64,000 nucleotides of DNA. It comes from Bacteroidales bacterium. GTDB taxonomy: Bacteria; Bacteroidota; Bacteroidia; Bacteroidales; F082. Shown here piece after piece: positions 4,198 through 18,982 of this stretch. The stretch lies in the NCBI GenBank assembly GCA_018400955.1, contig JAGYLH010000005.1:1-64000 (forward strand), given 5' to 3'. A program made the translations under genes and the position numbers. Position 1 is the first letter of the stretch, and each line of letters begins with the position of its first letter. The notes beneath the pieces were generated by a model that worked only from the letters and a program-made list of their open reading frames with translations, was not told where the DNA came from and did not search any database.

Positions 4198-4277
4198 TCT
4201 GTACAAATGATTGCTGGAGATGCAACTTAACCATCTTTTGCACAGCATCTTTACTAATTTATTCAAACCCTGAAACT

Positions 4278-4706
4278 TTGAAAATTACAGAAATTCCGTT
4301 TCAAGTTGTTTCCATCGAAGATGACGGCTTTCACCTGCTTACGCAAGGTACGATCAATGGAAAAGCAGCCACCTTTTTAATTGATACTGGGGCTTCACGT
4401 TGTGTGTTCGACGAGGGCATCATTCAACAATATATGGATGAAACCATTTTTGAGGAAAACGAAAAGCTATCTACCGGTTTGGGCACCAACACCATGCCTA
4501 CAAAAATTGTTGAACTCCAAAGCATGGGCTTTGGCGACCTGTTGATTAAAGGCTATGTAGCTGTTGCCATCGATCTGAGCCATGTTACCGAATCATACAG
4601 CAACCTGGGCCTGCCCGAAATCAATGGTGTTTTGGGCAGTGATATTTTGCATGAATACCGCTGTGTAATCAATTTCAAAAAGAAAAAACTGAAATTCTAT
4701 TATTAG
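4278..4706 (+). CDS. Retropepsin-like aspartic protease family protein
   Basis: This small protein (142 aa) carries the retropepsin active-site motif FLIDTGASRCVFD (Asp-Thr-Gly, about residues 37-39) and a second Gly-rich flap-like segment, GVLGSDILHEY. A single-domain protein of this size would have to dimerise to form the active site, as viral and bacterial retropepsins do. No signal peptide is visible, so it is probably cytoplasmic. The start is a TTG at 4278; no ATG exists before the conserved region. Proteolysis is inferred from the motif only. It is followed by the convergent riboflavin operon. Confidence 0.75.
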   Translation: MKITEIPFQVVSIEDDGFHLLTQGTINGKAATFLIDTGASRCVFDEGIIQQYMDETIFEENEKLSTGLGTNTMPTKIVELQSMGFGDLLIKGYVAVAIDLSHVTESYSNLGLPEINGVLGSDILHEYRCVINFKKKKLKFYY

Positions 4707-4750
4707 CGGGTAAATCAATGAAAATAAGGTATTTACACAAATAAAGATGG

Positions 4751-5215
4751 TTAAAAAGCCTTCATCAGATTAGCCATTTCAATGGCAGCCATGGCTGCAT
4801 CAAAGCCTTTATTGCCTGATTTGGTACCTGCCCTTTCGATGGCTTGTTCAATACTGTCAGTGGTGAGCACACCAAATATAACCGGAATTTCTGTTTCCAG
4901 GCCAACAAGGGCTACCTTTGGCTACTTCACTAACAACAACATCAAAGCGGGGTGTTGATCCCTTATTACAGCCCCAAGGCAAATAATGGCATCATATTTA
5001 CCACTTTTAGCCATCTTTTTTGCGACCAGTGGAATCTCGTATGATCTGAGCTAAATACAACTAATTTCATCATCACTGCATCATTAGCGCTTTTAGGGCG
5101 TCGATATGGCCCCGCCAAAGAGAGTTTGCTGAACTGATAAATTCATTGAAGGCGATCCTATAACAATTCCAAACTTTAATCCTTTTGAATTAAGTTTACC
5201 TTCAATTATTTTCAT
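4751..5215 (-). pseudogene. ribH: ribH, 6,7-dimethyl-8-ribityllumazine synthase, frame-broken
   Basis: RibH condenses 5-amino-6-ribitylamino-uracil with dihydroxybutanone phosphate. It can be read only by switching frames. The start (ATG at 5215, MKIIEGKLNSKGLKFGIVIG) and the C-terminus ([17 protein letters not shown], then [20 protein letters not shown] and stop) are clear. Pieces such as NEFISSANSLW and HIDALKALMMQ appear in other frames between them. The full span would encode about 154 aa, the normal family length. Start, end and length are preserved with many indels inside, so I suspect consensus errors rather than decay. It is the last gene of the ribD-ribE-ribBA-ribH operon under the FMN riboswitch. 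Confidence 0.75.
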
Positions 5216-5229
5216 GTCTGATAAATATA

Positions 5230-6435
5230 TTAGTTGTTAATATTCAGCATATGTCCCATTTTGCCCTTTTTGTTGACAGGTAAAACTGGTTTTCTTTTGT
5301 TTGATCAATCTCAATAGGTATGCCGTTCCTGCCACTTTCAGGCCAAAGCCGTAGATGCCCTGATGGTTTTCGTGGATTGTTGGTCATAAGTTTCCGAGTT
5401 CGCCAGGCGCCAATATCGGCAAGTATTTCTGCACCAATACCATATCAACGCAAATCTGACGCAAACCCAAGTGCCTCGTTGTGGCTTCTGTATCCATCCC
5501 GCCATCTTGTAAGTGATGGGCTTTTGAGCTTGTTCAACAAACCAATACCCCATCTTCCTGGCGTGCCATAACAAGATACCACGCCCCTCTTTGGCAATCG
5601 CGCATGGCTTCTTCAAGCTGTTCGCCACAGTCGCATCATACGAACCAAAAACATCACCGGTTAAGCACTCTGAATGAACCCGTACCAAAAACAGGTTTGT
5701 CTCGGTGATGTGCCCATCCACAAGTGCGATATGCTCTTCCTTTGTGATGATATCGCGATAGCCAATAACTGAACATGCCATAAGGAATAATGGGCAACTT
5801 CACTTCGATACCGCTCCACCCAGTTTCTCGTGACAGCGCCGGTATGGCAATCAGATCGGCAATAGTTGCAGAGCTTTAACGTGTTTTTCACATGGTTGTA
5901 GTTCAGGAACGCGGGCCATAGAGCCGTTTTCATTCATGATTTCGCAAATGACCCCTGCAGGGTACAAACCGGCTTAAGCCTGGCGGTCAACAGCACCTCG
6001 GTGCGGTAGCCCTTACAGGCGCCACCTTCCTTGTATTCAAGGGGAAAAATGTAGCTGGTTTATTCTTAAAGTCAGCTGCTTTAGCGCTATGGTCCAATAA
6101 TTTTTTTAATCGTAAATGCCCGCTCTTATTGAAATGCCCGTCTTGGTTTCAACGGCATCCAACCGAAACAGTAAAAACCGTTTTATGGGTGTCGGTATTC
6201 TCTGTTACCATGCCGATGGATAGTTGCTTCAACCTTTTCTTGATAATGGGCAAGCAAATGAGCCCGCCACCATGCTTGTTCATAAATTGATGGCCTCAGG
6301 ACTTCTGCTTTCCCTGCTGACCGCAATCGGGTCATAACCCTTCATTTCGCGCCTTTTGCAATACATCACAACAACAACCATTTTGCCGTTTTTGATGTCT
6401 TCCAGTGCCTCTTCTATTGTGTTGAATTTGTCCAT
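5230..6435 (-). pseudogene. ribBA: ribBA, DHBP synthase / GTP cyclohydrolase II, frame-broken
   Basis: This bifunctional enzyme makes dihydroxybutanone phosphate (RibB half) and opens GTP (RibA half). The start is MDKFNTIEEALEDIKNGKMVVV (ATG at 6435). RibB-like pieces (GYDPIAVS) and RibA-like pieces (VRVHSECLTGDVFGS, AKEGRGILL) are found in different frames. The 3' end reads IEIDQTKENQFYLST and, one frame over, KKGKMGHML followed by a stop at 5230. The 1.2 kb length suits a full RibBA of about 400 aa. Frame changes occur every 50-150 bp. It is followed 14 bp later by ribH. Confidence 0.75.
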
Positions 6436-6475
6436 TACTTAATTTATGAATCCCATGTTCCTTTAAAAATTATTG

Positions 6476-7078
6476 TCAGTTCCTTGTTTTGTTTGGTGGC
6501 AGTTGGCTGGGTGAATTTTTGATGTATTTGCTCCACGGGTCGCATTCAATATTCACCGCATCGCCCGGTTTTTTAATAAGTAATGTAGTTTTGGCCCCTG
6601 TAAATGGAATAATGAAACGCTGAAACCGTTTTCATGCAGGCCCGAAGCTTGATCAGGCTAACGCCGTCGATCTTCAGAACCTTTCATGATGATGTAATCG
6701 TTGATATCTCCGGTGCCTCAATGTCGATCCAGATTGCGATGTCTTCTTTTTCTGAAGGCAATAATTTTTCCAATACCATCCAGCGACACCACCGTAATCG
6801 CCAAGCCTGTCGGTGAGTTGCATAGCTCTTTCCCGAGTTTATTTCTTCGCCAGGCTTGAGCATGCCAAGGTTTAATGCTGCTTTGTGGTTTCAGCCATCC
6901 ATCCACCTCAAGTGTTGATTCCCGGCGGTAACGATTGAGCATGCGTTGGTTACCAGATACTGTCGCCCGATTTTCAAATCGCCTAAAACTTTCTTTGCTC
7001 GAATTTTCAGGTTTGCCGATTTGGCCCCCACTTCTGCTTCCAGTTTTCCTGTTTCTTCAATTATTTCATAATAAACAT
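6476..7078 (-). pseudogene. ribE: ribE, riboflavin synthase alpha subunit, frame-broken
   Basis: Riboflavin synthase dismutates two ribityllumazines to riboflavin. The span from the ATG at 7078 to the stop at 6476 would encode about 200 aa, as expected. Recognisable pieces in shifting frames are EETGKLEAEVGAKSANLKIR near the start, ERAMQLTDRLGD in the middle and PGDAVNIECDPWSKYIK near the end, in the order of the two lumazine-binding repeats. Several indels break the frame. The gene sits between ribD and ribBA on the same strand. I judge the identity sound and the lesions probably artefactual. Confidence 0.72.
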
Positions 7079-7079
7079 A

Positions 7080-8190
7080 TCAGTTCTTTTTGTGTATACC
7101 TCTACCATGATATCTTCGTCAAAGCGTTTAACCTGCTCGATTCGCAGGGTTAAGTAAATCCGACATTTTCAGTCCCGGGCCACCGCCTGGGTGTAAAAAG
7201 CCGTTTTGCCGCCGATGAATTTGGGTTAAATAAATGCGTAAACCTTGTCGATATTCCGGCCCGCAAGGCAGAAAAATTTAGCTCCACTGCCTCCTCCAAC
7301 AGACTGTCGATTCCGGTTTCGGCAAGCTTTGAACGAGGAAAATTCAGGATCACTTTTGCCACCACCGCATCAGGCTTGGGGCAAATCATGGTTTCAACAC
7401 CTTTGTTTTTCAGTTTTTCTCATATCAAAAAGGCATACTAATTTAGGTAGTGGCAATCAGTGTTCTGGCCTGTTGGGTATTCAGGATATTGGCATCCATC
7501 GGCCTTCCGTTTGTGTAACAACCGCAACGGTTGCTCTTAATCGTAATATTCGTTTGACCTGTCGGTAAGATGGGGGTTGTCGATCCGCCATCTGGCTCAC
7601 ACCTACCAGGATGGCAGCATATCTGTATTAATTCGTACACAAAATCCCTTGATGCATTATTGGTTATCCATTTGCTGGAATTACCTGAAGAGGTGGCCGT
7701 TTTTCCATCGGTCATGGCTGTTTAAGCACCTAAAAAAGGTCTGGATTGCAGTATGAACTTGCAGAAAATCTCTGTTGATTTTCCTGATTTCCATCTTCAA
7801 GAAGGCCCACTACAGTTGAGAAATACTTGCGGATAAGGTGGTCGATTCCTTTTTGTTTACAAGTGGGTTGGGGTCGGTCATGCCCAGCTACCACGCGCGG
7901 GCGCCTTCATTGATCCTTTCAGTACAGGGTGTTTTTCCAAAATGGTTACAGGGTTCGAGCGTTACATAAAAGTGTAGCTCCTTTTGCGCTTGTTGTGGCA
8001 TGGTTAAAGGCATTGACCTCGGCATAGGGTCCTCCATATTTTCGGGTTGTGCACCATTAAATTCATCAATGATTTTTCCATCTTTAACGAGCACTGCACC
8101 AACTAGGGGATTGGGATTTACGTGGCCATAGCCTTTAAGCGACAATTGGATTGCCCTTTGCATGAATTTGATGTCCTCATTATTTTGCAT
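7080..8190 (-). pseudogene. ribD: ribD, pyrimidine deaminase/reductase, frame-broken
   Basis: RibD deaminates and then reduces the pyrimidine intermediate of riboflavin synthesis. The N-terminal half is readable: MQNNEDIKFMQRAIQLS (ATG at 8190; the track starts 9 bp earlier), NPNPLVGAVLVKDGKII, and the zinc motif FYVTLEPCNHFGKTPCTE. The other zinc-site motif, normally HAEVNA, reads YAEVNA in the frame where it is legible, another possible base error. The reductase half (7.1-7.85 kb) survives as scattered fragments. The 3' end (RFDEDIMVEVYTK) abuts the ribE ATG. It is the first gene behind the FMN riboswitch. Confidence 0.75.
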
Positions 8191-8259
8191 AATAACCACA
8201 ATAAGTTATCCTCCGGGGCACCGGATAGCATAGATAAATGAGGCATCACTGCCTTTAAT

Positions 8260-8400
8260 CTCTTCTCCTATCCAGACTATACTGTCGGCCCAGGAATTTC
8301 ACCTGATCAGTCTCGTCAACCAGGTTGATGAGAGTCGCGGACTTTTACCGCCGGTCGGGAATTGCCAGTTTTAATGGCTGGCTCACCCTGCCCCGAAGAA
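8260..8400 (-). promoter_or_regulatory. FMN riboswitch (RFN element)
   Basis: The minus strand contains the conserved RFN blocks in order: CTTCGGGGCAGGGTGA, then ATTCCCGACCGGCGGTAAAAG, then CCGCGA, a variable stem, TCAGGTGAAATTCCTGGGCCGACAG, and TAGTCTGGATAGGAGAAG closing the P1 helix. The element is complete and undamaged, in contrast to the genes it precedes. It ends about 70 nt before the ribD start. Known RFN elements bind FMN and shut down riboflavin synthesis genes; control at translation initiation or by termination cannot be decided here. Confidence 0.95.
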
Positions 8401-8521
8401 ATTCATTGCAAATTTACAACTAAAAACTGATTTGCACGACCTGTGGGCAAAAATATTTATTACAGTAAGCGACACATTATCAATAATATAATAACTATGT
8501 TTTAAATAATAGTAAAAAATA

Positions 8522-8550
8522 TTTAGTACTTTGTAATACATGGTACTAAA
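8522..8550. promoter_or_regulatory. Palindromic operator, probably for PadR
   Basis: A 29-bp near-perfect palindrome has outer arms TTTAGTAC and GTACTAAA (8/8) and an inner TGTA/TACA pair; only four of 28 positions break the symmetry. It ends 8 bp before the -7 box of the padR-pspC operon. PadR regulators generally repress their own operon through such palindromes, so autoregulation is inferred. Confidence 0.65.
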
Positions 8551-8557
8551 ATTGTAT

Positions 8558-8565
8558 TATTTTTG
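8558..8565 (+). promoter_or_regulatory. -7 box (TATTTTTG) of the padR-pspC operon
   Basis: TATTTTTG fits the TAnnTTTG consensus and lies directly before the ATG at 8570, implying a nearly leaderless transcript. TTTG at 8530-8533, inside the palindrome, could be the -33 element although the 24-nt spacing is long. Confidence 0.5.
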
Positions 8566-8569
8566 CCCC

Positions 8570-8908
8570 ATGAACACAGAAAAAACGATCTCTCAAATGC
8601 GGAAAGGTGTGCTGGAGTTTTGTATTCTGGCCATTATTTCGAAGAATAAGGAGGTGTATGCCTCCGACATTCTCATGCAACTAAAAAATGCAGAACTTAT
8701 AGTGGTTGAGGGCACCTTGTACCCTTTACTTACCCGTCTGAAAAACGATGGTTTGCTCAGCTACCGCTGGGAAGAGTCAAAGTCGGGGCCACCGCGCAAG
8801 TATTATCAGATTACCGAAACGGGTACACAATTGTTGAGCGGCCTGCAGCAAGGTTGGGATCAACTGGTTGAATCAGTGAACACAATAGCTAAGAACCATA
8901 ACCAATAA
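8570..8908 (+). CDS. PadR family transcriptional regulator
   Basis: The ATG at 8570 gives MNTEKTISQMRKGVLEFCIL, the usual PadR N-terminus (112 aa); the track start is 30 bp upstream. The winged helix is evident: KEVYASDILMQLKNAELIVVEGTLYPLLTRLKNDGLLSYRWEES, then GPPRKYYQITETG forming the wing, followed by a helix for dimerisation. The strict phrase EGTLYPLLTRL is diagnostic. The pspC gene follows 11 bp downstream, an arrangement common in Bacteroidota, where the PadR protein probably represses the envelope-stress-like PspC membrane protein. A palindromic operator overlaps its own promoter. Confidence 0.93.
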   Translation: MNTEKTISQMRKGVLEFCILAIISKNKEVYASDILMQLKNAELIVVEGTLYPLLTRLKNDGLLSYRWEESKSGPPRKYYQITETGTQLLSGLQQGWDQLVESVNTIAKNHNQ

Positions 8909-8919
8909 TATTTAATAAA

Positions 8920-10518
8920 ATGAAAAAGACATTGACAGTAAATATCAGTGGCATCGTTTTCCACATCGACGAAGATGCCTATGAGCAATTGAATCAATAC
9001 TTAAGCAGTTTAAAAAAGCATTTTGGCAAGGATGACGATTGTGAAGAAATCATTGCTGATATCGAGAACAGGATGGCTGAGCTGCTTCAGCAGAGAACGA
9101 ACGAAACCAAACAAGTGATCACGCTTGTGGATATCAATGAAGTAATTGGCTTGTTGGGACAGCCGTTCGAGATGGATGATGAAGCCGAGGGTGAGAAGAG
9201 GAAGTACAGCTATTCGACCAAGGCAAAAAGGCTGTTCCGCGATCCGGATAACCGTGCCCTTGCTGGTGTGGCGGCTGGATTGGCAGCCTATTTTGGTATC
9301 GATATTATACTGTTCAGGATTTTATTCATTGTCTTATTTTTTGCCTCGGGCGCAGGTTTGTTGATCTATATAATACTTTGGATTGTGATGCCTGAAGCTT
9401 TAACCACAAGCGAAAAGCTTCAGATGCGGGGCAAGCCAGTCAATATTTCCAATATTGAGGAATCGGTAAAAAGGGAAGTTGAAACCGTAAAGTCAAAACT
9501 GGAAGGTTATGCTGAGGAGGCACGTGCAAGCTACCACAACCAAAAGCATCATATGCACAAGGCTTCCAACAGTGTGATTGATGTTTTGGTAAAAATCGCA
9601 AGCATTATTGCCCGCATTGTTGGGATAGTGGTAGGACTGGTTCTGTTAATGATTGGTTTAGGCTTGCTTGTAGGTTTTGGAGCCATGTCAATCGGGTGGG
9701 ATGGTTTTAGCCTGTTTGAAGGCGGGCAGTTTATTCATATTTCTTTTGCCACCCTTACAGAATGGTTGCTGGCAAGCCCACTGGCCATTTCGATGGCCCC
9801 GGTCGCCCTGTTCCTGTTTTTTGGCATTCCACTTGTTATGCTGATTTATTTGGCTTTGCGTTTGCTAATTGGTGAGCATTTCAGAATTCCGCGAATTGGC
9901 AACACACTTGGTTTGGTGTGGATCGCCAGCCTGATTGGATTGATTGCAATTGGTGTTGACACATTCAGCGATTTCAAGCATAAGTCGGGGGCTTCGCAAA
10001 CAACATCAACCTTGTATTTGGACGAAGGGGAGGTGCTTCATATTAAAACATTGCCTGTTTTAGTAAAAAATCACACAAATACCATACACCTTTTCGACAA
10101 TAAATACCTTGTTGAGCATGGAAATAGTAGCGAAATGCTATACGCCTACCCCAGACTTGAAATTTTTTCTTCAAAAGAACCCCATATCAATGTTTGGGTA
10201 AATCCCATGGCATCGGGTTATTCACTTGAGGCTGCCATCGAACGTGCCGAATCAATTCATTTCGACGTCGGGCTTAACGATTCAACCATTGAAATTCCTG
10301 ACCTATTTAGTTTTAATGCCCAACACAAAATCCGCAGTCAGCAAGCACAAATTACCATCAGGTTGCCCATAGGACAGGTTGTTTATTTTGATGAAAACAT
10401 GAAGGATTTGTTGCGAAACAACCCACATAAATACTGGAAGGGATTGCCATTTGCCGGAAATTTTTGGGTAATGACTGAAAGGGGTTTGAAAATGTACAAG
10501 GATGCCGAAATTGATTAA
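8920..10518 (+). CDS. PspC domain membrane protein
   Basis: Cytoplasmic N-terminal region (about residues 1-90; MKKTLTVNISGIVFHIDEDAY, typical of this Bacteroidota family), then a PspC domain (about 100-160) with RLFRDPDNRALAGVAAGLAAYFGID followed by a hydrophobic pair of segments. A coiled, charged linker leads to three or four further membrane segments (about 225-350) and a C-terminal extracytoplasmic beta-rich domain. PspC proteins are linked to membrane stress responses; the function of this large form is not established. It is co-transcribed with padR. A degraded copy of part of its 3' end lies 2.4 kb downstream, beyond htpX-lemA. Confidence 0.88.
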   Translation: MKKTLTVNISGIVFHIDEDAYEQLNQYLSSLKKHFGKDDDCEEIIADIENRMAELLQQRTNETKQVITLVDINEVIGLLGQPFEMDDEAEGEKRKYSYSTKAKRLFRDPDNRALAGVAAGLAAYFGIDIILFRILFIVLFFASGAGLLIYIILWIVMPEALTTSEKLQMRGKPVNISNIEESVKREVETVKSKLEGYAEEARASYHNQKHHMHKASNSVIDVLVKIASIIARIVGIVVGLVLLMIGLGLLVGFGAMSIGWDGFSLFEGGQFIHISFATLTEWLLASPLAISMAPVALFLFFGIPLVMLIYLALRLLIGEHFRIPRIGNTLGLVWIASLIGLIAIGVDTFSDFKHKSGASQTTSTLYLDEGEVLHIKTLPVLVKNHTNTIHLFDNKYLVEHGNSSEMLYAYPRLEIFSSKEPHINVWVNPMASGYSLEAAIERAESIHFDVGLNDSTIEIPDLFSFNAQHKIRSQQAQITIRLPIGQVVYFDENMKDLLRNNPHKYWKGLPFAGNFWVMTERGLKMYKDAEID

Positions 10519-10520
10519 GA

Positions 10521-10594
10521 TGGCAACCTGCGCATTGAGGATTATATCAGCCTTAAAAAATCGATGATTAAGGCCTATCCCGACCTTGAGAATC
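10521..10594 (+). repeat. Relic of the 5' end of the GNAT-nitrilase gene
   Basis: The bases just after pspC (CAACCTGCGCATTGAGGA, then ATATCAGCCTTAAAAA, then GGCCTATCC) match, with few differences, codons 8-32 or so of the gene starting at 12696. The similarity fades after about 75 bp. It has no start or stop context and is not a gene. It forms the first half of a reciprocal relic pair around htpX-lemA. Confidence 0.8.
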
Positions 10595-10633
10595 AATTAC
10601 AAAAAACGTATGCCAAAGTACTATTAAGCAGTT

Positions 10634-11629
10634 TTATCTTTCCAAAGCTGAAGCAGGGATTATACTCTTTTTGGAATGGGTTACCGCGTGGTATGCCTGC
10701 TGATAGCCTGTATAAGAGTGTGCATTGCCCATTGCCCTCAGGATTTTTATCCGCTGGTCGAGGGGCGGGTGGGTGCTGGAGAGGTTTTTCAGGCGTTGCC
10801 CTTTGGGTTTTAATGGGTTCGCAATATACATGGGCGCCATGGATTTATCGGCCACTTTAAGGTCCTGGGTGGAAGAACCAATTTTCTCCAATGCCGAAGC
10901 CAGTCCCTCAGGATACCTTGTGAGTCTTGCAGCAGAAGCATCAGCAAGGTATTCGCGTTTGCGCGAAACTGCAAAGTACAAGAGTTGAATGGCAATAGGG
11001 GCCAAAATGGCGAAAATAACCGCTGCAATCATGATCACGGCGTTGCCTTTGCCCTTGGAGTTGCCTCCACCTCTTCCCCTGCCTGAAAACATCATACTGC
11101 GCAGAAAAATCTGCGAAACGATGGCAACCGTACCAACCATTACCGTTGCAAGGGTCATATAGCGGATGTCGCGGTTAAGGATATGCGCCATTTCATGAGC
11201 TACCACACCCTGCAATTCGTCGCGTTTCATGATTCTCAGCAATCCGGTGGTGACAGCTACCACGCTTTTCTTCGGGTTTACGCCGGCAGCAAATGCATTG
11301 GGGGCATCGTCCTCAATCACATAAACTTTTGGCATTACCGGCAAACCGGCTGCAATACGCATTTCTTCAACAATATTATACAATTGTGGGTAGTCATCAG
11401 GGCCTATTTCATGGGCGTTGCTCATGCGCAGCATGATGGATTTGCCCTGCGAAAAGGTAACAAGCAACATAATGAGGTAAACAATGGTGGCGATAATAAT
11501 GCCCACAAAGCCACCACTTTCCACATCCACTGACGAGCCGATAACAAAGCCCAGAACCACAAGCACCACGCTCATCATTATAAGGAGCATCGAGGACTTG
11601 AACCTGTTTTTTTTGATTACTTCCCACAT
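10634..11629 (-). CDS. htpX: M48 family zinc metalloprotease, HtpX-like
   Basis: 331 aa. Two N-terminal membrane segments (about 13-32 and 42-62), then the zinc motif HEMAH (about residues 144-148) with the third ligand in the downstream segment REYLADASAARLT, and two more hydrophobic segments around the Gly-rich stretch RGRGGGNSKGKG. HtpX proteases degrade misfolded membrane proteins, with the active site facing the cytoplasm. The gene lies 41 bp downstream of lemA on the same strand, a pairing common across bacteria (LemA plus HtpX/M48). The C-terminus ends in a basic extension. The pair appears to have been placed between pspC and the nitrilase gene. Confidence 0.92.
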   Translation of the reverse strand: MWEVIKKNRFKSSMLLIMMSVVLVVLGFVIGSSVDVESGGFVGIIIATIVYLIMLLVTFSQGKSIMLRMSNAHEIGPDDYPQLYNIVEEMRIAAGLPVMPKVYVIEDDAPNAFAAGVNPKKSVVAVTTGLLRIMKRDELQGVVAHEMAHILNRDIRYMTLATVMVGTVAIVSQIFLRSMMFSGRGRGGGNSKGKGNAVIMIAAVIFAILAPIAIQLLYFAVSRKREYLADASAARLTRYPEGLASALEKIGSSTQDLKVADKSMAPMYIANPLKPKGQRLKNLSSTHPPLDQRIKILRAMGNAHSYTGYQQAYHAVTHSKKSIIPASALER

Positions 11630-11670
11630 ATAAGCAGAAGTTTAAGCATTATCAATAAATGAATTATGCA

Positions 11671-12222
11671 TTAAAAGCTCACTTTCGGGGCCTGACGCTC
11701 CTGCGGGGCTTCCACCTCAAAGAACACTTCCTTGCTGAAACTAAACATACCGGCAATAATGTTCGAAGGGAACATTTCAATTTTGTTGTTCAGGAAAAGT
11801 ACCTGGTCGTTGTAGTTCTGGCGTGCAAACGAAATTTTATTTTCAGATGAAGTAAGTTCTTCCTGCAATGCAAGGAAGTTTTGGTTGGCTTTAAGGTCGG
11901 GATAGTTTTCAACGGCAATTTTAAACTGTCCCAAGGCAGATGATAACATGCCTTCGGCCATGGATTTTTCGGCGACACCGCTGGCTTCCATAGCCTGGGC
12001 GCGCATGCGTGTAACATTTTCAAGGGTTTCGCGCTCGTGTTTCATATAGCCCTTCACTGTTTCGATCAGGTTAGGGATCAGGTCGTAGCGGCGTTTGAGC
12101 TGTACATCAATCTGCGACCATGCGTTTTTTACTTGGTTGCGCATTTTCACCAGGCTGTTGTACATGCCAATAATAATGATTACCAAAACGGCAACAACGG
12201 CAAGAATAATAATGGCTGTCAT
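11671..12222 (-). CDS. lemA: LemA family protein
   Basis: The track starts at a TTG (12231); the ATG at 12222 gives MTAIIILAVVAVLVIIIIGMYN, a single N-terminal membrane anchor, so I use it (183 aa). The signature LemA core follows: NSLVKMRNQVKNAWSQIDVQLKRRYDLIPNLIETVKGY, then the long helical ERETLENVTRMRAQAM region and YNDQVLFLNNKIEMFPSNIIAGMF. It is a membrane-anchored helical bundle facing the periplasm or outside. LemA function is poorly known, but association with M48 proteases is recurrent, and htpX follows directly here. Confidence 0.95.
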   Translation of the reverse strand: MTAIIILAVVAVLVIIIIGMYNSLVKMRNQVKNAWSQIDVQLKRRYDLIPNLIETVKGYMKHERETLENVTRMRAQAMEASGVAEKSMAEGMLSSALGQFKIAVENYPDLKANQNFLALQEELTSSENKISFARQNYNDQVLFLNNKIEMFPSNIIAGMFSFSKEVFFEVEAPQERQAPKVSF

Positions 12223-12379
12223 AGGTTTCAAATTTTTTACAAATGTAGCTTATTTTAAGTTGTGATGTAGTGTGTTTGAGGCAACCTATTTTGTGATGCA
12301 GTGATGCAGTAGCCTGTTAGCCCGTGCTTTTTACGATTGCCCCTGCATGCCTATTTAGTCAGGTTTACCTTGCTGCAAG

Positions 12380-12575
12380 AAGTCAGGGGTTTCGCAAACA
12401 ACCTCAACCCTGTATTTGGACGAGGGGGAGGTGCTTCATCTTAAATCATTGTCCGTTTTAGTAAAAAATCAAACGAATATAATACATATTTTCGACAACA
12501 AATACCTTGATAATCATGCAAAAAGTAGCGAAATGCTTTATGCGTGCCCCCAGGCTTGAAATTGATCAAGATGAA
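12380..12575 (+). pseudogene. Relic of the 3' part of pspC
   Basis: This stretch matches pspC at 9981-10165 with many substitutions (TTCGCAAACAAC, TGTATTTGGACGA, GGAGGTGCTTCAT, AGTAGCGAAATGCT). At GAAATT it jumps to the pspC stop region: GAAATTGATCAAGATG corresponds to GAAATTGATTAAGATGG at 10507-10523. About 350 bp are therefore missing between two GAAATT copies, as in a microhomology deletion. It has no intact frame and is a remnant of duplication. Confidence 0.8.
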
Positions 12576-12600
12576 GTCAGGCATTGAATCAGGGCGGGTG

Positions 12601-12630
12601 TTTGTTATATAGTGGGATTGCTTACTTTTG
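12601..12630 (+). promoter_or_regulatory. Promoter for the GNAT-nitrilase gene
   Basis: TTTG at 12601-12604, an 18-nt spacer, then TACTTTTG at 12623-12630, both matching the Bacteroidota consensus. It lies about 65 bp before the ATG at 12696. Confidence 0.55.
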
Positions 12631-12695
12631 TGGTAGAATCAGCTGATTGATTGTTTTGATTGGCTGATGATTCCATAAATTTAAGTAGTTTTTTT

Positions 12696-14228
12696 ATGAG
12701 TGAAAACGTATTGATTGAAATACGCAACCTGCGCATTGAGGATTATATCAGCCTTAAAAATTCTATGATTGAGGCCTATCCTGACCTGGAAGATTCGCAC
12801 TGGACGCATCCTGAAATTGAGAAACTGCTGCAAATTTTTCCTGAAGGGCAGATTGGTGTTTTCGTAAACGGTAAGGTTGCCGGAAGCGCTTTGTCGTTGA
12901 TTGTGGATTATAGCAAGTTTGGCGATGACCACAATTATATGCAAATTACGGGCAATCAAACTTTCTCAACGCACAATGCGGAAGGTGATGTGCTATACGG
13001 AATTGATATCTTCGTTCATCCTGAGTATCGAAACCTCAGGCTTGGCCGGCGCATGTATGATGCACGCAAGGACTTGTGCGAACGCCTTAACCTAAGGGCT
13101 GTCATAGCGGGAGGTCGCATTCCCAACTACACCAATTATGCTGATGATCTCAGCCCTAAAGACTACATCAATAAGGTAAAGCTGCGGCAGATATACGACC
13201 CCACCTTATCCTTTCAGCTTGCCAATGATTTCCATGTAAAAAAAGTGCTCCGCAACTATATGCCCGGTGATAAATCCTCGCACGAGTTTGCAACACTATT
13301 GCAGTGGCATAACATTTATTACCAAAAGCGTCAGCGTTTATTCAGCGAAACCAAGCCTGTGGTTCGGCTTGGGCTAGTGCAATGGCAGATGCGTTCGTTT
13401 GCCAATATTGATGCCTTATTGGAGCAGGTGGAGTTTTTTATTGATGCTGTAAGCGATTACCAATGTAATTTTATCCTCTTTCCGGAGTTTTTCAACGCTC
13501 CCTTGATGGCGGCCTACAATCATTTTTCAGAAGCGGAAGCTATTCGCAAACTGGCTCAGTTTACCGAGCCTTTGCGCAATAAGTTTATCGAATTTGCCAT
13601 CAGCTACAACATCAATATTGTTACCGGAAGCATGCCGCTGCTCGATAAAAAAGGGCTAAAAAATGTGGGTTATTTGTGCCGTCGCGATGGTACGTGGGAA
13701 CAATATGAGAAAATACACATTACACCCAGCGAATCGCAACACTGGGGTATGGTTGGCGGCAACAAATTGAAAGTATTTGATACCGATAGTGGTAAAATCG
13801 GCATTCTTATTTGCTATGATGTGGAATTTCCGGAATTGGCCCGATTGCTTGCCGAACAAGACATGCAGTTGTTGTTTGTGCCTTTTTTGACCAACACACA
13901 AAACGCCTACATCAGGGTGAGGAATTGTGCTATGGCGAGGGCAATTGAAAACGAGTGTTACGTGGCAATTGCAGGTTGCGTTGGCAATTTACCCAAAGTG
14001 AACAATATGGATATTCAATATGCCCAGTCGGCTGTGTTTACACCTTCCGATTTTGCTTTCCCCACCAATGGAATAAAATCGGAAGCAACGCCAAATACTG
14101 AGATGACCTTGATTGTGGATGTTGACCTCGACCTGCTAAAGGAATTGCATAGTTTTGGCGCTGTTCGCAACTTGAAAGAACGCAGGCTCGACATTTATAA
14201 GGTGCTCAACCTGACTTCGGAAAAATAA
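12696..14228 (+). CDS. GNAT acetyltransferase / carbon-nitrogen hydrolase fusion
   Basis: The track starts at a TTG; the ATG at 12696 gives MSENVLIEIRNLRIEDY (510 aa). Residues about 1-190 form a GNAT domain with the acetyl-CoA loop in HPEYRNLRLGRRMYDARKDL. Residues about 220-490 form a nitrilase-superfamily domain with the Glu-Lys-Cys triad: LFPEFFNAP, YEKIHITPSE and GILICYDVEFPELAR. This two-domain protein is widespread in Bacteroidota and other phyla, but its substrate is unknown; coupling of acyl transfer with amide hydrolysis is inference. A relic of its 5' end lies 2.1 kb upstream next to pspC. Confidence 0.92.
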   Translation: MSENVLIEIRNLRIEDYISLKNSMIEAYPDLEDSHWTHPEIEKLLQIFPEGQIGVFVNGKVAGSALSLIVDYSKFGDDHNYMQITGNQTFSTHNAEGDVLYGIDIFVHPEYRNLRLGRRMYDARKDLCERLNLRAVIAGGRIPNYTNYADDLSPKDYINKVKLRQIYDPTLSFQLANDFHVKKVLRNYMPGDKSSHEFATLLQWHNIYYQKRQRLFSETKPVVRLGLVQWQMRSFANIDALLEQVEFFIDAVSDYQCNFILFPEFFNAPLMAAYNHFSEAEAIRKLAQFTEPLRNKFIEFAISYNINIVTGSMPLLDKKGLKNVGYLCRRDGTWEQYEKIHITPSESQHWGMVGGNKLKVFDTDSGKIGILICYDVEFPELARLLAEQDMQLLFVPFLTNTQNAYIRVRNCAMARAIENECYVAIAGCVGNLPKVNNMDIQYAQSAVFTPSDFAFPTNGIKSEATPNTEMTLIVDVDLDLLKELHSFGAVRNLKERRLDIYKVLNLTSEK

Positions 14229-14790: not shown

Positions 14791-14896
14791 TTTCCGGATT
14801 ATAGATTTAAATATTTTATTGATTTGAGGCGCAAATGTAGGAATTTTTTTTGATTGGATCTAAAAAATTCAACATTGCCCCGATGATTAACAACTA

Positions 14897-15466
14897 TTAA
14901 CGTCGTGAGCGGTCTTCGCGGCGAACGGTTTGCATTACGCTGCCAATTTCGTCCAATACGTCATCACTGATATCGTTGCGCGGGCTGGCATAAAGCATGG
15001 TCGCACCGCTTGCTTTGTCGAAGATAAAAGCATAGTTGCGCGTCTCTGCAATTTCCTGTATGGCATTGAATATTTTTTCCTGAATGGGCTGCACCAATTC
15101 CTGCCTTTTATTGAATAAATCACCCTCAGGGCCAAAATATTTTAACTGCAACGCTTTTGCGGCGCGTTCCTTCTCCAGTATTTCATTTTCTTTCTTCCTT
15201 TTCAGGTCATCTGGTAGCAAAACGGATTGGGTTTGGTAATCGCGGTACATGTCTTCAACAAGGGAAAATGCATCTGCAATTTCTTTCTCCCATTGCTTGC
15301 TAAAGGTATTTAATTCCTCCTGGGCATCATTATACTCTGGGATATTGTTTAGAATGTATTCGGTATCGACATACGCGAAGCGTTGATTCTGGGCATATAA
15401 ACTTGTTGCTGTAACAACAAATACGCTTATTATCAGAGGGATAAAAAACAATTTAAAAGTTTTCAT
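14897..15466 (-). CDS. OmpH/Skp family periplasmic chaperone (first copy)
   Basis: 189 aa, with a signal peptide ending near SLYAQ, then RFAYVDTEYILNNIPEYNDAQEEL leading into the coiled coil (about residues 45-120), and the strand NYAFIFDKASGATMLYASPRNDISDDV. A good Shine-Dalgarno (AAGGAGA) precedes the ATG, unusual for this window. It lies between bamA and the second ompH copy. The two copies differ clearly in sequence (this one has an Arg-rich tail REDRSRR) and may serve different clients; that is inference. Confidence 0.93.
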   Translation of the reverse strand: MKTFKLFFIPLIISVFVVTATSLYAQNQRFAYVDTEYILNNIPEYNDAQEELNTFSKQWEKEIADAFSLVEDMYRDYQTQSVLLPDDLKRKKENEILEKERAAKALQLKYFGPEGDLFNKRQELVQPIQEKIFNAIQEIAETRNYAFIFDKASGATMLYASPRNDISDDVLDEIGSVMQTVRREDRSRR

Positions 15467-15569
15467 AATTCAGTCTCCTTTTTTATTTTTTTATTTAGTT
15501 GGTTTATACCAAAAAACCTGCCAAAGTTTTTTCACACTGTATAAACAAGTTTCATTTGCAAGCCATGTT

Positions 15570-18239
15570 TTAATCAATCGATTGGTTGATTGAGAAGTGA
15601 AACTGGCTGCCATTGGCACCCGGTATGCCCTGAATTTCGTCAAAGCCATAACCCCAATCAAGGCCAAGCAATCCAAACATAGGCAGGAATACGCGCACCC
15701 CAAAACCAGCTGAACGTTTCACATCGAAGGGATTGAACGAGCCAAATCCAAGCCAGGAGTTACCGGCTTCAACAAAGGTAAGGGCATATATAGTAGCACT
15801 GGGATTGAGCGAAAGCGGGTAGCGCAACTCCAAAGTATATTTGGTAAATACATTGCCACCAATATTTTTGTCCTGATAATACAGTGGTGTAACGGTTTCG
15901 TTTCCATAGCCCCTCATGCCGATAATTTCCCGTCCATCAAGGTTGTTATAACCCGAGAGCCCATCACCGCCCAGATAGAAGCGTTGAAAAGGTGTTATAC
16001 CTATATCGTCGTTATAATTACCCAGGAACCCAAACCTTATCCTGGTGGCAAGCACCAGCTTTTCAACAGGCTCGATATACCAGGAAGTATTGATTTTCCA
16101 CTTATGGAACTCAACCCATTTAAACCGGTCGTTTTCTTCAAGTTGGGTATAATCCTTGTTGTTAAATGCCGAATAGGGCGGAGTTACCTCCAGCGAAATG
16201 GAGAAATCAGAACCCGAACGGGGATAAATTGGCTGACTTATTGAGCTTCGGCCAAAAACGATGTTATAACTGAAAACGTTGAAAGAACCTGTTCCCGTTC
16301 CCACTTTAAATATCTGTGCATAGTTATTCAGGTCATAGCGTTGCAGGTTAATGGCCTGGTATAGTGTGAAAAAGTCATCGGGCCATTGAAGCCTTTTGCC
16401 TAATCCTATTGTTAAGCCATTGATTTTGAATGTTGCACGATTGGTATCTGATTTGGGAAGTGCATTTGAAAATGTTGAATGGAAATAGGACAAGGTAAGC
16501 GATGTTGGTTTGCGGCCTCCAAGCCAGGGCTCTGTAAATGAAGCACTATAGCTCATATACCCACTTCCGTAAGTTTGAAAACGAAGTGCAAGTTTTTGTC
16601 CGTCTCCTGATGGAATTGGGCGCCAGGCTTCTTTCTTTAAAACATTCCGCATGGAGAAATTATTGAATGACAATCCCAATGTGCCCAATATACGTCCATA
16701 ACCCCATCCACCTGAAAGCTCTATCTGGTCAGCTGATGTTTCTTCAACCGTATATTCAATGTCAACCGTTGATTCGGACGGGTTCGGAATGGGGTTTGGT
16801 ACAATAGACTCAGGATTAAAATACCTTAGGTTGGCCAATTCGCGGACCGTACGGATAATATCGGAACGGCTGAACAATTGGCCAGGCCTTGTGCGCAATT
16901 CGCGAATAACCACATGGTCGTTGGTTTTGGTGTTGCCCTTGATCGAAACATTGCTAATGCGTGCCGGACTGCCTTCCCTTATTCTGATCTCCAAATCGAT
17001 ACTGTCATTTTCCACCAATACTTCTACAGGATCTGCACTAAAAAAAAGATAGCCGAAATCCATATACTGCGAAGTAACATCCATACCGTTCGGGTTGTAA
17101 TTCAGATTGGTTTCGAGTAGTTCGCGGTTGTAAACATCGCCTTTTTGAATGCCTAATATGGCTGAAAGTGCCTCGGATGGGTAAATGGTGTTTCCTACCC
17201 ATTTAATATCCCTGTAATAATATTGGTTGCCTTCGTACACTTCGAGATCGATATGCAGGTATTCGCCATCAAAATAAGCAGAATCGTTTACGACCTTTGC
17301 GTCTCGGTAACCCTTTGAATTGTATTTATTTACAATTAATACCTTATCTTCATCATAATTATTTTCGATATACTTGGATGATTTTAGGATGCGGACGCGG
17401 TAATTGTCGGTAAAATACGCTTCAATGCCCTGAAGAGCGCGTAATGGCTTAAGTCTTAATAAATCAGTGGCTGTATTCACCACCAATGGGCCAAGCGGAT
17501 CGAGGGGGTTGAATGCTCCCATTTCTTTGGTTTCGCGCATGGCTGACCGCACTTGTTCGTCAGTAAAACTTTCGTTTCCACTTATATTGATGCTTCCAAT
17601 CCTCACTTTTGTATTTTTATCAACATCGATTATCAAGGAGATGTAATTCTCTCGGTCTTCATCTTTTTCTTGTTTTATTTCGACTTGTGTATTCAGGAAG
17701 CCTTTTTCGGAAAAATGATCCTTGATAATATTTGATATACGCATAAACAGGTGATCAGTAGCTACATCACCCCTGGTCAGGTTTATTTTAGCGCGAATAT
17801 CATCGGCTTCGGATTTGCGAATTCCTTCAAATGAAAACCGTGAAACGCGTGGTCTTTCTCTCAAATCAATATTCAGAAACACCTTGCCGCCCTGAATGCT
17901 TGTGGCTGTAATGTTCACATTTTCAAACAAACCCTGATCCCATAGTTTGCGAATGGCTTCTGTAATTTTATCACCAGGCACTTTAACAGTTTGGCCTACA
18001 GATAAGCCCGAAAGCATAATAAGCACTTGTGGATCGAGGTATTGGATGCCTGAAACAGTAATGCCTCCAATTTCATAATCCTTCGGACTGCTATAGTCTA
18101 TGCTTGAAACATCTGAGCCAATCTGAATTTGTGCTAGTGCATTTTTCGGCTGGATGGTAACAACAACCAGGCATGCAATTAACAAAAGATGAATGGTGTG
18201 TTTAATATTTAATCTTCTCCTCATGGCTTTCCGGTTCAC
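15570..18239 (-). CDS. bamA: BamA, outer-membrane protein assembly factor
   Basis: 889 aa. After a signal peptide there are several POTRA repeats (about residues 45-450; for example VKVPGDKITEAIRKLWDQGLFENVNI, and YNRELLETNLNY), then the Omp85 barrel with the conserved FYLGGDGLSGYNNLDGREI and RGYGNE region and a C-terminal strand ending near FHFSINQSID. BamA inserts barrels into the outer membrane. The track start is a GTG that overlaps the uppS stop (GTGA); the ATG five codons in (18224) is an alternative. The gene order uppS-bamA-ompH-ompH supports the assignment. Confidence 0.95.
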   Translation of the reverse strand: MNRKAMRRRLNIKHTIHLLLIACLVVVTIQPKNALAQIQIGSDVSSIDYSSPKDYEIGGITVSGIQYLDPQVLIMLSGLSVGQTVKVPGDKITEAIRKLWDQGLFENVNITATSIQGGKVFLNIDLRERPRVSRFSFEGIRKSEADDIRAKINLTRGDVATDHLFMRISNIIKDHFSEKGFLNTQVEIKQEKDEDRENYISLIIDVDKNTKVRIGSINISGNESFTDEQVRSAMRETKEMGAFNPLDPLGPLVVNTATDLLRLKPLRALQGIEAYFTDNYRVRILKSSKYIENNYDEDKVLIVNKYNSKGYRDAKVVNDSAYFDGEYLHIDLEVYEGNQYYYRDIKWVGNTIYPSEALSAILGIQKGDVYNRELLETNLNYNPNGMDVTSQYMDFGYLFFSADPVEVLVENDSIDLEIRIREGSPARISNVSIKGNTKTNDHVVIRELRTRPGQLFSRSDIIRTVRELANLRYFNPESIVPNPIPNPSESTVDIEYTVEETSADQIELSGGWGYGRILGTLGLSFNNFSMRNVLKKEAWRPIPSGDGQKLALRFQTYGSGYMSYSASFTEPWLGGRKPTSLTLSYFHSTFSNALPKSDTNRATFKINGLTIGLGKRLQWPDDFFTLYQAINLQRYDLNNYAQIFKVGTGTGSFNVFSYNIVFGRSSISQPIYPRSGSDFSISLEVTPPYSAFNNKDYTQLEENDRFKWVEFHKWKINTSWYIEPVEKLVLATRIRFGFLGNYNDDIGITPFQRFYLGGDGLSGYNNLDGREIIGMRGYGNETVTPLYYQDKNIGGNVFTKYTLELRYPLSLNPSATIYALTFVEAGNSWLGFGSFNPFDVKRSAGFGVRVFLPMFGLLGLDWGYGFDEIQGIPGANGSQFHFSINQSID

Positions 18240-18982
18240 TTCTTGTTTAATTGTTCGCTTATTTTGCCGAACCTGCGTTCACGGCATTGAAAATTGAGTA
18301 TGGCTTCATAAAGGTCTTCTTTCCTGAAATCAGGCCAAAATTTAGGTGTAAAATACAGTTCGGCATAGGCAATTTGCCAAAGCATAAAATTGCTGATCCT
18401 GTACTCCCCGCTTGTTCGTATAAGTAATTCGGGGTCGGGCATATTGTATGTTGTTAATAGCTTTTCAATACACTCCTGATCCACCTCTTCAGGTTTACAT
18501 TGTCCATTGGCAATTTCAACGGCCAGTTTTCGTGCGGCCTCAATAATTTCCCAACGGCTTGAATAGCTGAGTGCCAGGGTAAGCGTCATGCGGTCGTTGC
18601 CACTTGTTTCTTCAATGGCTTTGAGCAAGCGGTCGCGGTTTCGCTTTGGTAAGCTTTGCAGGTCGCCAATGGCATTCAGGCGGATATTGTTCTTGTTAAG
18701 GGTGACTATTTCATCATTAATGGTTTGCAACAACAAACTCATCAAAGCATTCACCTCAATTTTGGGCCTGTTCCAGTTTTCGGTTGAAAAAGCATAGAGC
18801 GTTAGGTATGAAATGCCTAATTCGGCAGCACTTTCAGCAGCTTCACGCACGGATTGCACTCCACTTTGGTGCCCAAAAATCCTGTGTTTTCCTTGCTTTT
18901 TGGCCCAGCGTCCATTGCCGTCCATAATGATGGCAACGTGTTGGGGCAAGCGTTCAATATCTATTTTTTCTTTTAAACTCAT
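18236..18982 (-). CDS. uppS: Isoprenyl transferase (undecaprenyl diphosphate synthase)
   Basis: The track start at 19030 overlaps porG; the ATG at 18982 gives MSLKEKIDIERLPQHVAIIMDGNGRWA (248 aa), normal for cis-prenyltransferases. Diagnostic motifs are MDGNGRWAKKQG, YLTLYAFSTENWNRP, ALSYSSRWEI and LLIRTSGEYRISNFMLWQIAYAELYF. The enzyme condenses isopentenyl diphosphates onto farnesyl diphosphate to make the C55 lipid carrier for peptidoglycan and O-antigen. It overlaps bamA by 4 bp and follows porG by 19 bp, so translation is probably coupled. Confidence 0.96.
   Translation of the reverse strand: MSLKEKIDIERLPQHVAIIMDGNGRWAKKQGKHRIFGHQSGVQSVREAAESAAELGISYLTLYAFSTENWNRPKIEVNALMSLLLQTINDEIVTLNKNNIRLNAIGDLQSLPKRNRDRLLKAIEETSGNDRMTLTLALSYSSRWEIIEAARKLAVEIANGQCKPEEVDQECIEKLLTTYNMPDPELLIRTSGEYRISNFMLWQIAYAELYFTPKFWPDFRKEDLYEAILNFQCRERRFGKISEQLNKK

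Follow-up and report, generated by a model that had tools for sequence, protein, structure and literature searches.

A lemA-htpX pair between reciprocally decayed copies of a pspC/nitrilase junction in a Bacteroidales genome

Insertion with long target duplication (ILTD) was described by Nobusato et al. in 2000 for restriction-modification genes of Helicobacter pylori, and as cited in PMC3031569, PMC1643837, PMC4978471, and PMC3154945 it leaves a foreign block lying between long direct repeats of its target. As at the locus in this report, the block is recognized because a related genome has the site unoccupied, and a transposase is absent. The locus described here has these features in common with ILTD: a junction that is empty in related genomes, long direct target repeats, and no transposase, integrase, or IS ends. 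The pattern is the same, but the cargo is an M48 protease and LemA rather than the restriction-modification genes associated with the first described cases. The host is a member of the Bacteroidales, the empty site comes from a sister genus and not from another strain, and the scar is an old one in which decay has been reciprocal.

Other described processes share parts of this arrangement. Homology-facilitated illegitimate recombination, discussed in PMC5361080 and PMC3240628, is similar in that foreign DNA is caught at a homologous anchor and truncated remnants of resident genes are left; insertion in that process typically goes with deletion or displacement, whereas at this locus each side has a copy of the target. 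Single-crossover (Campbell-type) integration, or insertion-duplication, gives the same order, in which the foreign DNA is bordered on each side by a truncated gene with a full gene beyond it, but a vector, replicon, or circle was not found here. Transformation of pneumococcus produces small duplications without flanking repeats, including one of 3.3 kb, and merodiploids (PMC3784515). Tandem duplication with random loss also leaves partial relics at altered gene joints, although in that process the middle genes are rearranged residents, whereas those described here appear to have been acquired.

Layout of the locus and its direct repeats

The window, which is the whole 64-kb stretch of DNA analysed, lies on contig C181 of a metagenome-assembled Bacteroidales genome (83% complete, 235 contigs). 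From left to right, the locus consists of padR, pspC (plus strand), a nitrilase relic, htpX and lemA (minus strand), a pspC relic, and a GNAT-nitrilase gene (plus strand), with the following features.

8540..8908, plus strand: padR regulator gene (Pfam PF03551), which opens the padR-pspC-nitrilase cluster; the order is the same in the sister genus
8920..10518, plus strand: pspC, intact, with a PspC domain, a transmembrane region, and a C-terminal Toast-rack domain (Pfam PF04024/PF22571/PF22744)
9982..10518, plus strand: duplicated portion of pspC, with the left repeat limit at 9982
10523..10589, plus strand: nitrilase relic, codons 10-32, junction copy 1 (93% identical to 12724-12790)
10590..12379, no strand: presumed inserted segment of about 1.8 kb; the similarity of the flanks ends at these limits, and the segment is missing here in the sister genus
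10634..11629, minus strand: htpX, intact, M48 metalloprotease with a HEMAH motif (Pfam PF01435), evidently acquired, placed by its tree with families f33/f28
11671..12222, minus strand: lemA, intact (Pfam PF04011), evidently an acquired xenolog, 83-85% identical to f33
12261..12309, no strand: one of several short intergenic repeats dispersed in the genome, within the presumed inserted segment
12380..12573, plus strand: pspC relic, codons from 355 on, junction copy 2 (matches 9982-10164 and 10507-10522)
12600..12630, plus strand: probable nitrilase promoter, kept in copy 2, from reading of the sequence
12696..14228, plus strand: GNAT-nitrilase fusion gene, intact (Pfam PF00583 + PF00795), 76-77% identical to the sister genus

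A check of the pspC reading frame (8920..10518) found no internal stops. The nitrilase gene starts at ATG 12696, which aligns with the MDKN... start of the sister genus, and not at TTG 12660. Upstream of padR, the region 4200-8540 is gene-poor and decayed-looking; it includes a fragment of a RibD-like deaminase gene, truncated, at 7888-8190 on the minus strand.

The initial annotation held that the end of pspC and the start of the nitrilase gene are present twice, once on each side of htpX-lemA, and alignment of the two flanks bears this out, with similarity far above chance. A direct-repeat scan detected the pspC pair at 9982-10152 and 12380-12550 (repeat D1, 171 nt, 85%) and the nitrilase pair at 10523-10589 and 12724-12790 (repeat D2, 67 nt, 93%, with 5 differences between relic and intact gene). 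Gapped alignment of 9982-10164 with 12380-12563, in the last third of pspC, gave 85% identity and a score of 231, whereas none of 300 dinucleotide shuffles scored above 31. By self-blastn, the two pairs are the top two direct repeats of the 64-kb window, with E values of 2e-53 for pspC and 7e-22 for nitrilase (10510-10589 and 12710-12790). These shuffles and E values rule out chance similarity of the copies. An artefact might be suspected in so fragmented and incomplete an assembly, but the copies differ by 7-15% and carry a frameshift and a deletion, which misassembly would not produce; we consider an origin by chance or artefact exceedingly improbable.

Self-blastn found no similarity outward of 9982/12380 on the left or of 10590/12791 on the right, and both limits are sharp. 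That the relics are reciprocal and that their sharp outer limits exactly enclose htpX-lemA supports an insertion. The part of the repeat that is still recognizable comprises 184+16 bp of pspC and 67 bp of nitrilase. We infer that the unit duplicated was about 758 bp long, comprising the final 537 bp of pspC, the spacer of 126 bp (12570-12695), and the initial 95 bp of nitrilase; this length is a minimum, since later trimming may have shortened the repeats.

The spacer of copy 2 includes a promoter candidate, TTTG-N18-TACTTTTG (12600-12630) or TTTG-N18-TACTTTTGTG (12600-12632), and the sister-genus spacer upstream of nitrilase has TATCTTTG in G021 and TACTTTTGTG in G045. The TTTG-N18-TACTTTTGTG element fits the known promoter type of the Bacteroidales. 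This reading suggests that the nitrilase gene kept its own, probable promoter. A scan for the exact pattern TTTG-N19-TAnnTTTG missed the site owing to its spacing of 18.

Ancestral gene order and source of htpX-lemA

In 6 of 6 sister-genus genomes (G007, G021, G034, G045, G055, and G211), padR, pspC, and nitrilase follow one another on the same strand, with a pspC-nitrilase gap of 42-145 bp in the five that have an intact pspC, and htpX-lemA was found at or near the cluster in none of the six. The adjacency of pspC and nitrilase is therefore older than the insert, and the earlier proposal that the two genes were once neighbours, with relatives in which nitrilase follows pspC directly, holds in every sister-genus genome examined. 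Elsewhere in the family and order, other genera have padR-pspC with no nitrilase adjoining it. In G007 most of pspC has been deleted while the gene order is kept, and the first and last parts of the gene remain beside nitrilase (L050 9855-10249); pspC is apparently dispensable in that genome.

The htpX gene has a different distribution. Among 173 family genomes, the one studied here is alone in having this type of htpX, and the sister genus lacks it; three other family genomes have a distant form (37-39%). Among 393 genomes of the order, the closest htpX genes are in families f33 and f28, at 67-74% identity, and a maximum-likelihood tree groups HtpX with these two families with a support of 97/100, far from the few other HtpX proteins of its own family. 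LemA is 83-85% identical to f33, compared to 40-45% to the sister genus, and a second, native lemA of the 41% kind is located on contig C164. BamA, used as a yardstick, shares 73-76% identity with the sister genus and about 56% with f33. Judged from sequence, a tree position outside its own family and a patchy presence mark htpX-lemA as acquired, apparently from another bacterial family.

By open reading frames and Pfam, htpX and lemA are the sole coding content of the segment, with no transposase or integrase, and a repeat scan found no inverted repeat pairing its two ends. Mobile carriage was considered and rejected: plasmid, phage, and viral-contig collections contained no close htpX, and the plasmid and phage matches were all below 60% identity.

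Between lemA and the pspC relic, the segment contains one copy of the dispersed intergenic repeat, which consists of 8-base units GTGAGTCT/GTGATTCA around GTGTGTTTGAGGGAG..TTTTGTGA. About eight copies occur in the genome (window 12261-12309; L002, L003, and L035-L042), and none was found in the relatives' loci examined. Part of the inserted segment may be resident DNA, since it contains a copy of the host's own dispersed repeat family.

The relics alone would also fit a tandem duplication with random loss, in which htpX-lemA first lay next to the cluster, was duplicated as part of a larger segment, and came into its present position through losses, since such a history would produce similar relics at the two joints. 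Middle genes that were originally adjacent and a leftover of the lost copy are features of that process, but no htpX or lemA leftover is present upstream or downstream, a search of the genome (83% complete in assembly) found neither a second htpX nor an htpX-lemA leftover elsewhere, the sister-genus clusters have no htpX-lemA nearby, and the nitrilase gene is just 49 bp from the next gene. We consider this history very unlikely.

Decay of the junction copies and history of the locus

Both relics are non-coding. The pspC relic lacks 348 bp, corresponding to 10165-10512 of the intact gene, and the deletion ends exactly at GAAATT copies at 10159-10164 and 10507-10512, a microhomology that the initial annotation had recognized, although it put the size at 350 bp. 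Past the deletion, the relic resumes with GATCAAGATG, the pspC-end match in which 10507-10522 recurs at 12558-12573 (15 of 16 bases), and it also has a 1-bp insertion (a frameshift) and in-frame TGA codons. The nitrilase relic has no promoter, no spacer, and nothing past codon 32; it had been described as a copy of the first codons, but codons 1-9 are gone and codons 10-32 are what follows pspC. The intact halves are pspC on the left and nitrilase on the right, as expected if each side of the insert received one junction copy.

The reciprocal relics, the adjacency in the sister genus, and the foreign type of htpX together lead us to conclude that the acquired lemA-htpX pair probably entered the pspC/nitrilase junction with a target duplication of about 758 bp, a reading to which we assign a probability of roughly 0.55. 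The ancestral junction would have received an acquired segment of about 1.8 kb, and the duplicated part of the junction would thereby have been left as direct repeats on either side of it, with pspC whole on the left and nitrilase and its promoter whole on the right, so that no gene would have been disrupted. The redundant half of each junction copy would then have decayed, reciprocally. Duplication and insertion would have been one event, with the geometry of ILTD or of a single crossover between the chromosome and a circular molecule that bore the junction together with foreign DNA. The same outline, with htpX-lemA coming between junction copies whose useless halves decayed, had been put forward from the window itself and is supported by the empty site in the sister genus and the foreign htpX type.

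The divergence of the copies bears on how directly this happened. Third-position changes account for 18 of the 30 differences, and dN/dS between the copies is 0.22 (bootstrap 0.09-0.51, with 2.8% of replicates ≥0.5), from small counts of 14 silent and 14 amino-acid-changing differences (28), compared to an expectation of at least 0.5 if one copy had been unselected from the start. This silent-site bias counts weakly against an immediate one-step origin, because dN/dS is lower than expected were one half useless from the start. It weakly suggests that both copies were functional for a time or that one of them was donor-borne, the favour being slight because the difference counts are small.

Two working copies would be accounted for by a longer tandem duplication of padR-pspC-nitrilase that came first, with htpX-lemA landing between the copies and nitrilase copy 1 and pspC copy 2 later lost reciprocally; the present repeat limits would therefore be deletion ends. 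The low dN/dS and the third-position bias fit this history, and a neat insertion at a duplication joint is not needed, but it takes more steps, two copies are present in none of the genomes examined, and there is no trace of a second padR, of codons 1-354 of pspC copy 2, or of nitrilase past codon 32. It is a tentative alternative that we regard as somewhat unlikely. A junction copy might instead have come from a related lineage, in which pspC-nitrilase was already divergent, and arrived together with htpX-lemA via a single crossover or homology-facilitated illegitimate recombination, and the two copies would therefore be xenologs. The mostly silent divergence is consistent with this, as is one nitrilase position at which the relic has the sister-genus base and the intact gene has changed; the 28 differences are small numbers, however, and a donor genome with htpX-lemA adjoining the junction was not found, and we think this origin quite unlikely.

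Other repeat-flanked genes and significance of the locus

A 444-kb sample of the genome contained three further direct-repeat pairs flanking accessory genes (Fic, ORF6N, and PIN + RelE), whose names are putative and were read off translations. On contig C194 (L249, 17187-19030), a putative Fic gene at 17387-18862 on the minus strand is flanked by direct repeats of 138 bp (90%), both of which contain the 5' end of one small reading frame (MEDR[HN]KVEID). On contig C182 (L248, 8173-9700 and 11493-12528), PIN-like and RelE-like genes have flanking direct repeats of 75 bp (80%), and an ORF6N-like gene has repeats of 124 bp (76%). Control loci of other genomes have direct-repeat pairs at comparable rates, so we do not claim recurrence in this genome. 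The sister-genus loci scanned for similar duplication-flanked inserts yielded nothing clean; in G034 (L051, reverse complement 14829-18648), direct repeats of 158 bp (86%) flank a gene pair for an FtsX-type permease and an ABC ATPase, and comparison with G211 and G055 gave no clear resolution. It is doubtful that ILTD is a general, transposase-free, and non-disruptive entry route for accessory genes of the Bacteroidales, with several scars in this genome (htpX-lemA, the C194 Fic gene, and the C182 ORF6N and PIN/RelE genes, with repeats of 75-138 bp).

The htpX-lemA locus is probably a well-preserved scar of a known, rarely documented insertion mode, and what is new with respect to the described ILTD cases is the other cargo, lemA-htpX, and the Bacteroidales host. 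The insertion is tolerated in that each interrupted gene retains one complete copy with its own promoter. Scars of the entry of foreign blocks without mobile-element machinery are usually erased. At this locus one can still make out the empty site, the two flanking copies, relatives resembling the donor, and how each redundant half decayed, and such gene gain is therefore open to study outside Helicobacter and restriction-modification genes.
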